A DNA stretch of 43,580 bases from Anaerostipes sp. (GTDB lineage Bacteria > Bacillota > Clostridia > Lachnospirales > Lachnospiraceae): positions 3,932-47,511 of the forward strand of contig JAQVEG010000017.1 of assembly GCA_028697725.1 (NCBI GenBank), read 5' to 3'. Below, piece by piece: positions 38,869 to 43,430 of this stretch (positions are counted from its first letter, which is position 1; each line of letters starts with the position of its first letter). The notes under the pieces were generated by a model. The model was not told the DNA's origin, did not search any database, and worked only from the letters and a program-made list of their open reading frames with translations. Made by a program: the position numbers and the translations under genes.

Positions 38869-40473
38869 TTAGTGTTTTATATTCAATGAAGCCTCAATAA
38901 ATCCTCTAAACAATGGATGTGCTTTATTTGGTCTTGATTTAAATTCTGGATGTGCCTGTGTTGCAACAAACCATGGATGTGCTGGAATCTCTACCATCTC
39001 AACAATTCTTCCATCTGGTGAACATCCTGACAACATCATTCCATTTTCCTGTAAGTCCTCGCGATATTCATTGTTTACTTCATAACGATGACGATGTCTT
39101 TCAGTAATTTCATGAGTGCCATACAATGCCTCTGCCTTAGAACCCTTGGTCAATACACATGGATATGAACCTAATCTTAAAGTTCCACCAATATCTGTGA
39201 CTCCATCTTGGTCTGCCATAATATTAATCACAGGATGTTCTGTCTCAGCATTAAATTCAATACTATGGGCATCTGCATATCCTAATACATTTCGTCCAAA
39301 TTCTACAATGGTAAGCTGCATTCCTAAACAAATTCCTAAATATGGAATCTTATTCTCTCTTGCATACTTAATAGAACAAATCATACCTTCAATTCCACGA
39401 TCTCCAAATCCACCAGGAACAATAATTCCATCCATATCTTTGAATATTTCATCTACATTGAAGCTGCTTACACGTTCTGAATCAATCCAATGAATTTGAA
39501 CATCTGCTGAGTTAGCAACTCCTGCATGTTCTAAAGACTCAACAACACTAATATAAGCATCGTGGAGTGATACATACTTTCCTACTAATGCAATGTCTAC
39601 TTTATGCTTTGGATTCTTCCAATTCTCAATCATCTTCTTCCAATCAGCTAAATCTGGCTCTGGACATGGAAGCTTAAGACATGCACATGCTTCATGAGCT
39701 AAATGCTCTCGCTCCATCATAAGAGGAACTTCATATAAAACTTCTGCATCTAAGTTCTCAATAACACGCTCTTTATCTACATTACAGAACTGAGCAATCT
39801 TTCTCTTAATTCCATCATCTAATGGATAGTCAGAACGACATACTAAAATATCCGGCTGAATTCCCATTCCCTGCAAATCTTTAACACTTGCCTGAGTTGG
39901 CTTTGTCTTCAACTCTCCTGAACTCTTTAAATATGGAATTAATGTTACATGAATCAAAATACAGTTTTCATGCCCAACTTCATGTTGGAATTGACGCAAC
40001 GCCTCTAGAAATGGCTGACTTTCAATATCTCCAACAGTTCCACCAATTTCAATAATTGCTACTTCTTGTTCTGTTGCCTCTTCATTGCGGTAGAAACGGC
40101 TCTTAATCTCGTTAGTTACATGAGGGATTACCTGTACCGTATTTCCTCCATAATCTCCACGACGTTCTTTATTTAAAATACTCCAGTAAACCTTTCCTGT
40201 TGTAACATTAGACTTTTTATTTAAGCTTTCATCGATAAACCTTTCATAATGTCCTAAATCCAAGTCTGTCTCTGCTCCATCATCCGTTACAAATACCTCT
40301 CCATGTTGAATTGGATTCATTGTTCCTGGATCAATGTTGATATATGGATCAAATTTCTGACTTGTTACATGATACCCTCTTGCTTTTAGTAAGCGTCCAA
40401 GAGAAGCGGCTGTAATTCCTTTACCAAGACCTGATACAACTCCACCTGTGACAAATACGTATTTTACTGGCAT
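38869..40473 (-). CDS. pyrG: CTP synthase
   Basis: 534 residues, full length. The N-terminal synthetase domain begins [14 protein letters not shown] and contains [16 protein letters not shown] and [23 protein letters not shown]; the C-terminal glutamine amidotransferase has LGICLGMQ with the nucleophile Cys and [10 protein letters not shown] with the His-Glu pair. It makes CTP from UTP, ATP and glutamine, and so supplies TagD with substrate. AGGAGG lies 6 bases before the ATG. It is a single-gene unit with its own promoter candidates and terminator. Confidence 0.98.
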
Positions 40474-40532
40474 GTTTCTTCCTCCTATGTTATATATATT
40501 AAAATTATATTATTCTTGACTCCAAAGATAAT

Positions 40533-40560
40533 ATGATACCATACTAATTGGATTTTGCAA
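40533..40560 (-). promoter_or_regulatory. Candidate proximal promoter of pyrG
   Basis: Minus-strand TTGCAA (40555-40560) and TATCAT (40533-40538) with a 16-base spacer and a TGG extension before the -10. Confidence 0.4.
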
Positions 40561-40571
40561 ATGTTTTCTTT

Positions 40572-40592
40572 TGAATTCCCTAAGTGAATTCA
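40572..40592. repeat. Small perfect inverted repeat in the pyrG leader
   Basis: TGAATTC-N7-GAATTCA, a 7-bp stem with a 7-base loop, just downstream of the distal promoter and overlapping none of the coding sequence. No T-run follows, so it is not a terminator. Confidence 0.5.
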
Positions 40593-40601
40593 TACTTGAT
40601 T

Positions 40602-40607
40602 ATTATA
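40602..40607 (-). promoter_or_regulatory. Candidate distal pyrG promoter, extended -10
   Basis: Minus-strand TGG-TATAAT is an extended -10; the -35 region 17 bases upstream (TTAATC) is weak. Confidence 0.35.
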
Positions 40608-40631
40608 CCATAATATAGAGAAAAGATTAAT

Positions 40632-40794
40632 ATATAAAAAGAAAGCACCTATACTTATTATTAAAACGGGAAATAATAATACTTTGCTTTCTTAATTAAT
40701 GATATTGACTATAATTTATAAAACAGGGTATGATGGCGAACTGCCATGGAAATTAAGTCAGAAATAAGAGGATTAAAGTATAGGTGCTTTCTAT
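40632..40794 (-). ncRNA. Candidate structured small RNA (~160 nt), 6S-like topology
   Basis: The predicted transcript starts at about 40794, seven bases after a strong promoter, exactly where a 17-bp perfect inverted repeat begins (40776-40792 with 40640-40656). The 3' copy is followed by a run of five T on the minus strand. Within the closing stem are a second helix (TGACT-TAATTT with AAATTA-T-AGTCA), a perfect 5-bp hairpin ATGGC-AGTTC-GCCAT, and a third hairpin (TTATTATT / AATAATAA) next to the 3' closing strand. A long closing stem, an open centre and a terminal stem-loop recall 6S RNA, but I see no sequence signature that proves it. No protein frame is present. Confidence 0.55.
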
Positions 40795-40800
40795 GTACTT

Positions 40801-40829
40801 AATATATCATACAAATATTTCCATGTCAA
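40801..40829 (-). promoter_or_regulatory. Strong sigma-A promoter of the candidate small RNA
   Basis: Minus-strand TTGACA (40824-40829) and TATATT (40801-40806) with a 17-base spacer, 13 bases beyond the stop codon of the NlpC/P60 gene. Confidence 0.7.
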
Positions 40830-40842
40830 CATATTTATGTAA

Positions 40843-41523
40843 TTATTTTACAATTCTTCGAATTGAAAGTACTTTTCTATATTTATAATTCGGAGAAATC
40901 TTAATTCCTGTTTTTCTACTACTTGCATGAACAATCTTACCACTACCAATATACATGGCTACGTGTCCACTATAGCAAACTAAATCTCCTGGTTGAATTT
41001 TCTTTGATGAGACTTTCTTTCCTGCTTTTCTTTGTGATGATGATGATCTCGGAATGTTATAACCAAAACTCTTATATACTGATTTAACAAATCCAGAACA
41101 ATCGGCACCAGAATTTAGGCTTGTTCCTCCCCACACATATGAGTTTCCAACAAATCGTTTTGCAAATGTTGCTACAGTTGTACCCTTACTATATGAACTT
41201 CCCTTTAACTTTGGAGCTGATGTACTAATATAAACATATTTTTTTAGTACCCATCCTGTAGAACCTTTATACGTAACCTTTCTCCAACTTCCACTAGTAT
41301 AATGTACTGTTACTTTTGTTCCCTTTTTGATTTTACGAAGTGATTTTGCTTTCTTTGATTTTGATTTTCTCAAAGATACTTGTTTAATCTTCCATATCTT
41401 ACCCGAATAGGTTGATGCTGCTTGTACATTCTTTTCACTTGCCATTAGTGTTCCAATACTACTACTTATTATCATTGAGAAAACCAATAGCAATACTATC
41501 ATTTTCTTTTTCTTCATTTTCAT
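40843..41523 (-). CDS. Secreted NlpC/P60 endopeptidase with SH3b domain
   Basis: 226 residues. A signal peptide (MKMKKKK start, hydrophobic 9-25, VQAAS cleavage site) is followed by a bacterial SH3 domain at ~40-100 (WKIKQVSLRKSKSKKAKSL, GSWRKVTYKGSTGWV) and a C40 peptidase domain at ~115-226. Cys142 (DCSGF), His187 (GHVAMY) and His199 (IVHASS) are the catalytic set. Enzymes of this build cut the D-Glu-diaminopimelate link of peptidoglycan stems. The start may instead be the ATG two codons later, which is better spaced from GAGG. It is a tandem paralogue of the next gene with its own promoter and WalR-like box. Confidence 0.93.
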   Translation of the reverse strand: MKMKKKKMIVLLLVFSMIISSSIGTLMASEKNVQAASTYSGKIWKIKQVSLRKSKSKKAKSLRKIKKGTKVTVHYTSGSWRKVTYKGSTGWVLKKYVYISTSAPKLKGSSYSKGTTVATFAKRFVGNSYVWGGTSLNSGADCSGFVKSVYKSFGYNIPRSSSSQRKAGKKVSSKKIQPGDLVCYSGHVAMYIGSGKIVHASSRKTGIKISPNYKYRKVLSIRRIVK

Positions 41524-41708: not shown

Positions 41709-42389
41709 TTATTTAACGATTCTTCTAATCGCTACCACGCTTCTATATCTGTAGTTATCTGAAATCTTAATTCCTGTTTTTTTACTACTTGCGTGAACAA
41801 TCTTTCCATTTCCGATGTACATAGCCACATGTCCACTGTAACAAACTAAATCTCCAGGTTGCATGTTGTTGGCTGATACTTTCTTTCCAGCTGTTCTTAA
41901 AGATGATGATGATCTTGGAAGGTTATATCCAAATCTCTTGTATACAGCTCCTACAAATCCTGAACAGTCAGCACCTGAGTTTAAGTTTGTTCCTCCCCAT
42001 ACATATGGGTTTCCAACAAATCTTTGTGCAAATGATGCTACCGTTGCACCTTTTGTTGCTGTATCCATGTTCGCTACTGATGGAGCATTGGTCTTAATGA
42101 ATACATACTTTTTCTTAATCCATCCAATCTTTCCATTGTATGAAACCTTTCTCCATGAACCACTTGTATAATAAACTTGAACTGTCTTTCCTTTTTTAAT
42201 CTTACAAATAGTCTTTCCGTTCTCTTTTGCTGTTTTTCTTAATTTGACACTTGCTATCTTCCAAATCTGTCCTTCATATGTCTCTTGAGCAGCCTGTGCT
42301 TGCTTCTCTGGCATAACCGCTACTGCAGTTGTAAAAATCATCATAATTACTGTTAAATATATTGTAAACTTTTTCAATGTTAATTTCAT
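41709..42389 (-). CDS. Secreted NlpC/P60 endopeptidase with SH3b domain
   Basis: 226 residues, the same length and domain order as the preceding paralogue, with no gaps needed across the peptidase domain. Signal peptide to about residue 34 (AQAAQ), SH3b at ~40-100, C40 domain with Cys142, His187 and His199. The C-terminal halves are much more alike than the signal peptide and SH3 parts, suggesting duplication with selection on the catalytic domain. AAGGAA precedes the ATG. It has its own promoter (42452-42480), a WalR-like box and a terminator, so the two copies can be expressed separately. Confidence 0.93.
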   Translation of the reverse strand: MKLTLKKFTIYLTVIMMIFTTAVAVMPEKQAQAAQETYEGQIWKIASVKLRKTAKENGKTICKIKKGKTVQVYYTSGSWRKVSYNGKIGWIKKKYVFIKTNAPSVANMDTATKGATVASFAQRFVGNPYVWGGTNLNSGADCSGFVGAVYKRFGYNLPRSSSSLRTAGKKVSANNMQPGDLVCYSGHVAMYIGNGKIVHASSKKTGIKISDNYRYRSVVAIRRIVK

Positions 42390-42584: not shown

Positions 42585-42590
42585 CTTAAC

Positions 42591-42663
42591 GTGGGCGAGA
42601 AGATTCGAACTCCCGGCCTTCTGGTCCGTAGCCAGACGCTCTATCCAGCTGAGCTACGCCCAC
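42591..42663 (-). tRNA. tRNA-Arg (ACG)
   Basis: 73 nt. Acceptor GTGGGCG/CGCCCAC, anticodon loop CTACGGA, T-loop TTCGAAT. CCA is not encoded. Last tRNA of the operon. Confidence 0.95.
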
Positions 42664-42673
42664 ATATTCAATT

Positions 42674-42703
42674 AACACTTAATGAACTGGATGTTTAAGT
42701 GTT
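42674..42703. repeat. Hairpin in the spacer between tRNA-Leu and tRNA-Arg
   Basis: Perfect 9-bp inverted repeat AACACTTAA / TTAAGTGTT with a 12-base loop and no T-run; a possible processing site in the precursor RNA. Confidence 0.6.
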
Positions 42704-42725
42704 TCATACTATTTGTAAGTATGAC

Positions 42726-42812
42726 TGCCGACGACCGGAATCGAACCGGTACTCGATTTAACTCGAACGGGATTTTAAGTCCCGCGCGTCTGCCAGTTCC
42801 GCCACGTCGGCA
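42726..42812 (-). tRNA. tRNA-Leu (TAA)
   Basis: 87 nt with the long variable arm of class II tRNAs. Acceptor TGCCGAC with GTCGGCA, anticodon loop CTTAAAA. Confidence 0.95.
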
Positions 42813-42815
42813 AAA

Positions 42816-42889
42816 TGGGACCAACAGGGCTCGAACCTGTGACCCCCTGCTTGTAAGGCAGGTGCTCTCCCAGCTGAGCTATGATCCCA
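42816..42889 (-). tRNA. tRNA-Val (TAC)
   Basis: 74 nt. Acceptor TGGGATC/GGTCCCA with one G-U pair, anticodon loop CTTACAA. Confidence 0.95.
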
Positions 42890-42942
42890 AGGGATATGAA
42901 ATTATATCACATAATAAAGAACACATTGTATGTGTTCAAAAG

Positions 42943-43016
42943 CGACCCGGATGGGAATCGAACCCACGACCTCCGCCGTGACAGGGCGGCGCTCTAACCG
43001 GCTGAGCCACCGGGCC
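42943..43016 (-). tRNA. tRNA-Asp (GTC)
   Basis: 74 nt. Acceptor GGCCCGG/CCGGGTC, discriminator G, anticodon loop CTGTCAC. A perfect 7-bp hairpin (GAACACA/TGTGTTC) lies in the spacer on its 3' side. Confidence 0.95.
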
Positions 43017-43041
43017 AGAAACTATTTATACTATACACCAA

Positions 43042-43115
43042 TGGACCCTCGGGGACTCGAACCCCGGACCGATCGGTTATGAGCCGATTGCTCTAACCAG
43101 CTGAGCTAAAGGTCC
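43042..43115 (-). tRNA. tRNA with CAT anticodon (Met or lysidine-type Ile)
   Basis: 74 nt. Acceptor GGACCTT with AGGGTCC, anticodon loop CTCATAA. It lacks the initiator-type mismatch at the acceptor end, so it is not fMet. Whether it is elongator Met or Ile2 (modified to k2C) cannot be told from sequence alone. Confidence 0.9.
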
Positions 43116-43152
43116 TTATATCTCATCACTCTATTAGTCCAAGTGTATGAAA

Positions 43153-43225
43153 AGCCGTTGACCGGACTTGAACCGGTAACCTGCTGATTACAAATCAGCT
43201 GCTCTGCCAATTGAGCCACAACGGC
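43153..43225 (-). tRNA. tRNA-Thr (TGT)
   Basis: 73 nt. Acceptor GCCGTTG/CAACGGC, discriminator T, anticodon loop TTTGTAA. Confidence 0.95.
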
Positions 43226-43256
43226 ATATGTAATTCATTAGTATATGATAATACAA

Positions 43257-43328
43257 TGACTCCAACGGGATTTGAACCCGTGTTACCGCCGTGAAAGGGC
43301 GGTGTCTTAACCACTTGACCATGGAGCC
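43257..43328 (-). tRNA. tRNA-Glu (TTC)
   Basis: 72 nt. Acceptor GGCTCCA/TGGAGTC with one G-U pair, anticodon loop CTTTCAC. A short perfect hairpin (GACCG/CGGTC, 43339-43353) lies between it and tRNA-Asn. Confidence 0.95.
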
Positions 43329-43357
43329 TTTCTTTCCTGACCGCTTCACGGTCTAAC

Positions 43358-43430
43358 CTCCCCGAGCTGGGCTCGAACCAGCGACAGCACGGTTAACAGC
43401 CGTGTGCTCTACCAACTGAGCTATCGAGGA
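43358..43430 (-). tRNA. tRNA-Asn (GTT)
   Basis: 73 nt. Acceptor TCCTCGA/TCGGGGA, discriminator G, anticodon loop CTGTTAA. First tRNA after the 23S gene. Confidence 0.95.

Follow-up and report, generated by a model that had tools for sequence, protein, structure and literature searches.

Genomic context and anatomy of the element

The window, by which is meant the whole stretch of 43,580 nucleotides of Anaerostipes sp. DNA that was analysed, contains a folded-RNA element, confirmed with its described parts on the minus strand at 40829-40632, with pyrG as the next gene downstream (Table 1). On the other side of the element lie two adjacent minus-strand genes of 226 aa (40843-41523 and 41709-42389), both with SH3_3 and NlpC/P60 domains, which are apparently a tandem duplication, and eight tRNA genes are clustered on one strand (minus) at 42590-43430.

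Table 1. Positions in the window of the RNA element, its parts and pyrG
Feature	Position	Strand	Basis
Sigma-A type promoter TTGACA-17-TATATT	40801..40829	-	11/12 consensus bases; TTGACA and 17-nt spacer in 11/11 relatives
Predicted structured RNA, ~160 nt	40632..40793	-	Fold and covariance model R1, 57.5 bits
Closing stem P1, 5' arm	40776..40792	-	Complementarity and compensatory changes in relatives
Closing stem P1, 3' arm	40640..40656	-	Complementarity and compensatory changes in relatives
T-run after P1, terminator-like	40636..40639	-	Sequence; interrupted in L032-L034
C-rich, mostly unpaired segment ATCCTCTTATTT, 5' side of bubble	40762..40773	-	Mean unpaired probability 0.89
Helix P2, 5' arm UGACUuAAUUU	40750..40760	-	Shuffles as good: 9/300 own species, 86/300 nearest relative
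Helix P2, 3' arm AAAUUauAGUCA	40706..40717	-	Same duplex test as P2 5' arm
Conserved UUUCC, internal loop	40748..40752	-	Alignment and predicted unpaired probability
Hairpin P3, AUGGC-AGUUC-GCCAU (40747-40743/40737-40733)	40733..40747	-	4/5 pairs change on both sides among relatives
CAUACCC, longest invariant sequence outside P1	40726..40732	-	10 rows of alignment A1 and eleventh member L045
3'-side hairpin P4, loop UUUCCCGUUUU (40678-40672/40662-40656)	40656..40678	-	Minimum-energy folds
Second AAGAAAGCA copy, can pair with P1 3' arm (40647-40639)	40685..40693	-	Local fold, terminator-like hairpin
pyrG (CTP synthase), next gene downstream	38869..40473	-	PF06418, PF00117

The original prediction was of a discrete structured RNA gene with a near-consensus promoter, a start seven bases after the -10 element at the first arm of a 17-bp perfect inverted repeat, three further helices (one bulged) and no fitting protein frame, and these features were borne out. 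In the window, TG precedes the -10 element, TAGAAAG starts seven bases past it and the 5' arm of P1 begins one base later; from the promoter and this spacing, the arm would start at about the predicted start of the RNA. The P1 arms are exact complements of 17 bp with 119 bases between them, and all three inner helices are present, with the bulged helix P2 absent from the window's own minimum-energy fold. No open reading frame of at least 60 aa lies within 40632-40829. The T-run, given as five T in the original prediction, has four residues beyond the second arm, or five if the last T of the arm is counted.

A scan of 40300-41000 on both strands gave eight promoter-like sites, compared with 5.0 (sd 2.0) in shuffled sequence, and the weight given to the site at 40829-40801 therefore comes from its score and conservation and not from the number of sites. 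Terminators, sought in the same interval with loops of 3-8 only, were not found. The minus-strand RNA has a predicted fold of -37.4 kcal/mol (z -6.5), and none of 200 shuffles was as stable; a plus-strand piece with a single P1 arm (40670-40829) gave a z of -0.5. Because the stem is palindromic, the full-length opposite strand in the window's species folds equally well (z -6.9), and the strand is thus set by the promoter and the T-run. A gene on the plus strand was considered in view of a promoter-like site with 10 of 12 consensus bases at 40705-40734 but was set aside, as the T-run and the 11/12 site belong to the minus strand.

Conservation within Anaerostipes

The element is present in all 11 Anaerostipes genomes checked, with one clear copy in each. 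Since the RNA diverges fast, a DNA search alone recovered it in only two of the 11; identity is 30-48% between the farthest lineages, 55-66% among L031-L034 and L045, and 87-96% between the closest. A covariance model, R1, was built from eight sequences upstream of pyrG, with the window, L026 and G009 not included, and it found these three members outside its build at 57.5, 50.7 and 87.1 bits, respectively. R1 matched 10 of 61 genomes, all of them Anaerostipes. The genus genome that it missed, G010, does have the element, which was found by the DNA search, by R1 in locus L026, and by a second model, R2, at 105.5 bits, a score that is not independent of the build as R2 contains the G010 sequence. 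Two further matches in G009, at 24.9 and 26.6 bits, were taken as noise, as were all R2 matches below 27 bits (in G009, G032, G037 and G064).

Searches beyond the genus returned no further members. A shallow R2 search of 397 family genomes (334 genera), in which seven candidate places were scored per listed genome, matched two genomes, both Anaerostipes, and a laxer R2 search of 21 genomes (19 other genera) gave matches with E up to 1 in five, namely two Anaerostipes and three below 27 bits. pyrG was found in 54 family genomes, and its surroundings were inspected in 29 loci from other genera: CATACCC was absent from the sequence upstream of pyrG in these 29 other Lachnospiraceae (up to 520 bases, with L051 partly masked and two loci shorter), and R2 gave no match above 20 bits in the same loci. 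Collections of plasmids and phages contained no match to the element. A 17-mer pattern scan of genome contigs yielded 21 stretches, among which L013 (Anaerostipes) is a relative with both arms, and four others scanned with R1 gave no convincing match (the best being L021, at 19.3 bits). The exact motif GGC-N3-7-GCCAATCATACCCC occurred in one of 299 family genomes, an Anaerostipes, and is narrow, as it misses the window's own genome. As far as these searches reach, the widest of them being shallow, they suggest that the family is confined to Anaerostipes.

Covariation and secondary structure

The closing stem is the best supported part of the predicted structure. In each of the 11 genomes, none of 300 shuffles gave a P1 duplex as good as the real one (z -5.4 to -8.9), in a test that does not rely on the fitted alignment described next. 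An alignment of the 11 sequences was fitted to the structure by R1, a procedure that favours this structure. Standard pairs fill 99.0% of its 195 helix cells, and both sides have changed in 8 of the 19 pairs (in P3, four of five). With 500 shuffles as control, the real value was never reached on four of the five measures and was reached 17 times on the fifth, the number of pair types; slid controls were 38-55% paired. When arms were exchanged between loci, most preferred their own partner or that of a close relative; the L025 arm, for example, gave -26.3 with its own partner, -6.1 with that of L030 and -20.3 with that of L032. The exception is L045, whose 5' arm scored -26.9 to -29.7 with the 3' arms of L032-L034, compared with -22.3 with its own. 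Compensatory changes in the 17-bp arms, named beforehand as the test on which the original prediction could fall, are thus present among the relatives, and the prediction was not refuted by this test; comparison across relatives strongly supports a discrete, putative RNA gene.

Ahead of the stem, TAGAAAG (TAGAAGG in one) lies five or seven nt after the -10 element in 11/11 genomes. The T-run takes the form CTTTCTTTTT in L025-L029, CTTTCTTTT in L031 and L045 and CTTTCGATTTTT in L030, and is interrupted in L032-L034. It is very hard to credit that the element is a mobile miniature inverted repeat, or some other non-functional palindrome, on the strength of its 17-bp inverted ends around a 119-base interior, when there is one clear copy per genome, beside pyrG in 10/11, with arms that change together between species and a promoter kept in 11/11. 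The mobile repeat was rejected on its single copies and co-varying arms.

Support for the inner helices is less even. MAFFT alone misaligns P2, which was therefore left out of R1 and R2 and judged by duplex energies. By this measure support for P2 is good in L030, L031 and L045, where 2, 2 and 0 of 300 shuffles did equally well, moderate in L025, L028, L032 and L034 (9, 23, 24 and 6 of 300), and not clearly beyond chance in L026, L027, L029 and L033 (86, 41, 172 and 45 of 300). A helix at the place of P4 appears in the full-length minimum-energy folds of L025-L028, not in L029 or the others. A hairpin formed by the second AAGAAAGCA and the P1 3' arm excludes P1; it comes out as the top local fold for L025, L026, L027 and L029, but not for L028 or the other lineages. 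At the 5' end, a hairpin of 4-5 bp (such as GUGCU..AGCAC or GCAC..GUGC) that competes with the closing stem was seen in the first 26 nt of L027, L029-L034 and L045. In eight of the 11 this 5'-arm hairpin outdoes most shuffles, with 8-30 of 300 equalling it; support is weak in L028 (42), and in L025 and L026 the hairpin is not above chance (102 and 128 of 300).

CAUACCC is invariant in 11/11, in contrast to the bulk of the unpaired sequence, which drifts. It is highly improbable that the P3 region is conserved because it encodes a leader peptide or other short coding sequence. One frame does read WFPFG.SANHTP in L031-L034, WFPFDISVKHTP in L045 and FPLAFANHTP in L027-L029, but the RNA motifs already account for such conservation, the UUUCC-CAUACCC spacing of 15, 16, 17 or 19 bases puts L025, L026 and L030 out of frame, and no start codon is common to all, with 5/11 lacking any upstream in frame. 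Frames of at least 10 codons were listed in all 11 for this check, and some start at the same helix within a lineage. A small protein was rejected, as the peptide is shared in 8/11, yet motif spacing and start codons are not kept.

Relationship to catalogued RNA families

At the gathering score, the 4227 families of Rfam 15 gave nothing in the whole window except the eight tRNAs. With E up to 10 over 40480-40860 there were two weak, implausible matches and none to the 6S RNA family, RF00013; RF00013 with E up to 1 was likewise without a match in loci L026, L027, L030, L031 and L032. Lax-threshold Rfam scans of the window element and five relatives' loci returned nothing credible. RF00013 was found above its cut-off in 11/11 Anaerostipes genomes, as the sole match in each and away from this element. 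The element is real, structured and conserved, and it is most likely an RNA gene, of a family unmatched in Rfam 15.

The resemblance to 6S RNA noted in the original prediction survives at the level of general layout and fails at the level of membership, which was rejected because the covariance model has no match here and a separate 6S gene exists in every genus genome. A long stem joining the 5' and 3' ends, typical of 6S RNA, is found (17 bp and perfect, with P1 supported in 11/11), and a bubble and an apical domain of 55-63 nt are predicted, with uneven support for P2 and no promoter-like elements recognised by eye. B. subtilis has two 6S RNAs, and it would fit with this if the genus had, in addition to its ordinary 6S gene, a 6S-like or Ms1-like polymerase binder whose shape imitates an open promoter. 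The length and layout (P1, bubble, apical arm and, in some lineages, a 3'-side hairpin) resemble 6S RNA as outlined in passages of PMC8876501, and Ms1 of Actinobacteria provides a precedent for 6S-related structure, according to passages of PMC9130861. Such a binder is nevertheless unlikely, given the lack of RF00013 matches in the window and in five relatives' loci, the separate 6S gene in 11/11, the shortness of the apical domain, a bubble that is longer on its 3' side, and the failure to recognise, by eye only, a -10-like or product-RNA start element. Among the readings originally offered, a new family fits best. A more specific form of it is conceivable, if tentative: a new closed-stem RNA family may have arisen within or near Anaerostipes, having either a CAUACCC loop with a protein partner or the role of a second, sequence-unrelated 6S-type polymerase binder.

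Relationship to pyrG

pyrG was located in all 11 genus genomes, and the RNA lies next upstream of it, on the same strand, in 10/11. The gene upstream of the RNA varies by species when judged by eye, being NlpC/P60 here and other frames elsewhere. The exception to the pyrG arrangement is G009 (contig 32, L092), where 3.6 kb separates the RNA from pyrG and the interval holds an AraC-family regulator, an EamA transporter and two frames with no Pfam match. Upstream of the G009 RNA is an HTH_38 fragment that looks transposase-like by eye. In G007 (L029), the gap between RNA and pyrG is 421 bases, compared with 133 and 135 in the near relatives L027 and L028. The ~290 extra bases before pyrG in G007 contain hairpin-like repeats, by eye.

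The constant position directly upstream of pyrG and the two mutually exclusive P1-arm pairings available in several genomes could point to a cis-acting leader or attenuator of pyrG. A 'pyrG motif', which may or may not be related to this RNA, is named once in the main text of PMC11109978, among motifs with a control mechanism that is hard to predict. In 5/11 genomes, moreover, no promoter-like site before pyrG stands out from shuffled sequence, 73-118 of 200 shuffles being as good as the best one. Against this, pyrG has its own conserved promoter-like site, ATGACA-17-TATGAT or TATCAT, in 6/11 (6-27 of 200 shuffles as good), genes intervene in G009, the gap is wide in G007, and no such element was found upstream of pyrG in the 29 other Lachnospiraceae. 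P1 and the hairpin that excludes it both end at the same T-run, so that neither is an obvious antiterminator. The regulatory role originally suggested by the pyrG neighbourhood is weakened by the separate promoter-like site and by the protein genes in between in one genome, and cis control of pyrG appears rather improbable. In the paper library searched, nothing linked Anaerostipes to pyrG together with small RNA, to 6S RNA, or to sRNA together with transcription start sites, and the main texts of PMC8040213, PMC8632094, PMC6429828 and PMC2864571 make no mention of pyrG or Anaerostipes.

Possible function

The favoured reading, held tentatively at a probability of roughly 0.4, is that the element may be a stand-alone structured small RNA gene that acts in trans through its C-rich segments. 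Comparison indicates a promoter of its own, a predicted start at the base of the long stem joining the ends, a conserved P3, a C-rich and G-poor bubble, and a T-run. The transcript would accumulate as an RNA of ~160-190 nt, with the closing stem possibly shielding both ends from nucleases. The exposed segments, CCUCU or UCCCCU, UUUCC, CAUACCC, and UUUCCC or UCCUCU, could then bind target mRNAs at their purine-rich Shine-Dalgarno regions by base pairing and would so block translation, as reported for LhrC, RsaE and FsrA.

This reading is favoured because the C-rich segments are mostly unpaired and because there is an LhrC-type precedent. In 11/11 the stretch enclosed by the P1 arms has more C than G (21 C and 11 G in the window's species, 29 and 9 in L045). 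The mean unpaired probability of UUUCC and CAUACCC is 0.69-0.99 in 11/11, compared with 0.49-0.59 for the whole inter-arm stretch, and that of the C-rich segments, which were picked by eye and two of which differ in sequence between lineages, is 0.61-0.99, except for one in each of L027-L029 (0.01-0.08). The element thus shares with sRNAs of the LhrC type a G-poor sequence and several C-rich stretches predicted to be mostly unpaired. Set against a trans-acting small RNA are the predicted pairing of the first C-rich piece in L027-L029, the interrupted T-run of L032-L034 and the L045 exception in the exchange of arms. C-rich motifs fit almost any Shine-Dalgarno site and are therefore weak evidence by themselves.

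CAUACCC is also more constant than an sRNA with many targets would need, and it could be a protein site. It is possible, if doubtful, that the element serves as a scaffold or otherwise binds protein, with the UUUCC/CAUACCC loop above P3 as the protein site and the C-rich strands incidental. The invariance of CAUACCC amid mostly drifting unpaired sequence is consistent with this, as are the single clear copy and strong promoter, which are usual in house-keeping RNAs; such an RNA is, however, without a candidate protein and has no Rfam family match.

The Lachnospiraceae are a major group of gut bacteria, and as far as is known their regulatory RNAs have been charted only poorly. In this Lachnospiraceae RNA, the strong comparative evidence, predicted start site and conserved loop make direct tests straightforward. 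The RNA may regulate other genes and, if confined to one genus, would show how a house-keeping-looking RNA can escape family libraries.

Comparison with known systems

In Bacillus, pyrG is controlled by leader attenuation. The element described here shares with that leader a position upstream of pyrG, but it has its own promoter and T-run and is separable from pyrG in G009. With 6S RNA (RF00013) it shares size, closing stem, large bubble, apical arm and a promoter of house-keeping type, and differs in its lack of a covariance-model match, the separate 6S gene elsewhere in the genome, a shorter apical arm and a lopsided bubble. Ms1, in passages of PMC9130861, is an RNA of 6S-related structure, and both its structure and its gene order were used to trace it; at ~300 nt, in another phylum and binding core polymerase, it serves here as a precedent only.

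The likeness to LhrC, RsaE and FsrA is that C-rich segments lie exposed and could base-pair with Shine-Dalgarno regions. The layouts of RsaE and FsrA are compared here as general background. Passages of PMC4132741 describe LhrC as a G-poor RNA of two stem loops with a single-stranded stretch between them that uses three UCCC sites to bind a G-rich sequence before the lapB start, and they report that a UCCC-type motif binds Shine-Dalgarno sequences also in RNAIII, RsaE, SprD and FsrA. The putative Anaerostipes RNA is G-poor like LhrC, and it differs from LhrC, RsaE and FsrA in that its ends are joined by a stem of ~17-21 bp, it has no Rfam match, and its CAUACCC loop lies beside a hairpin.
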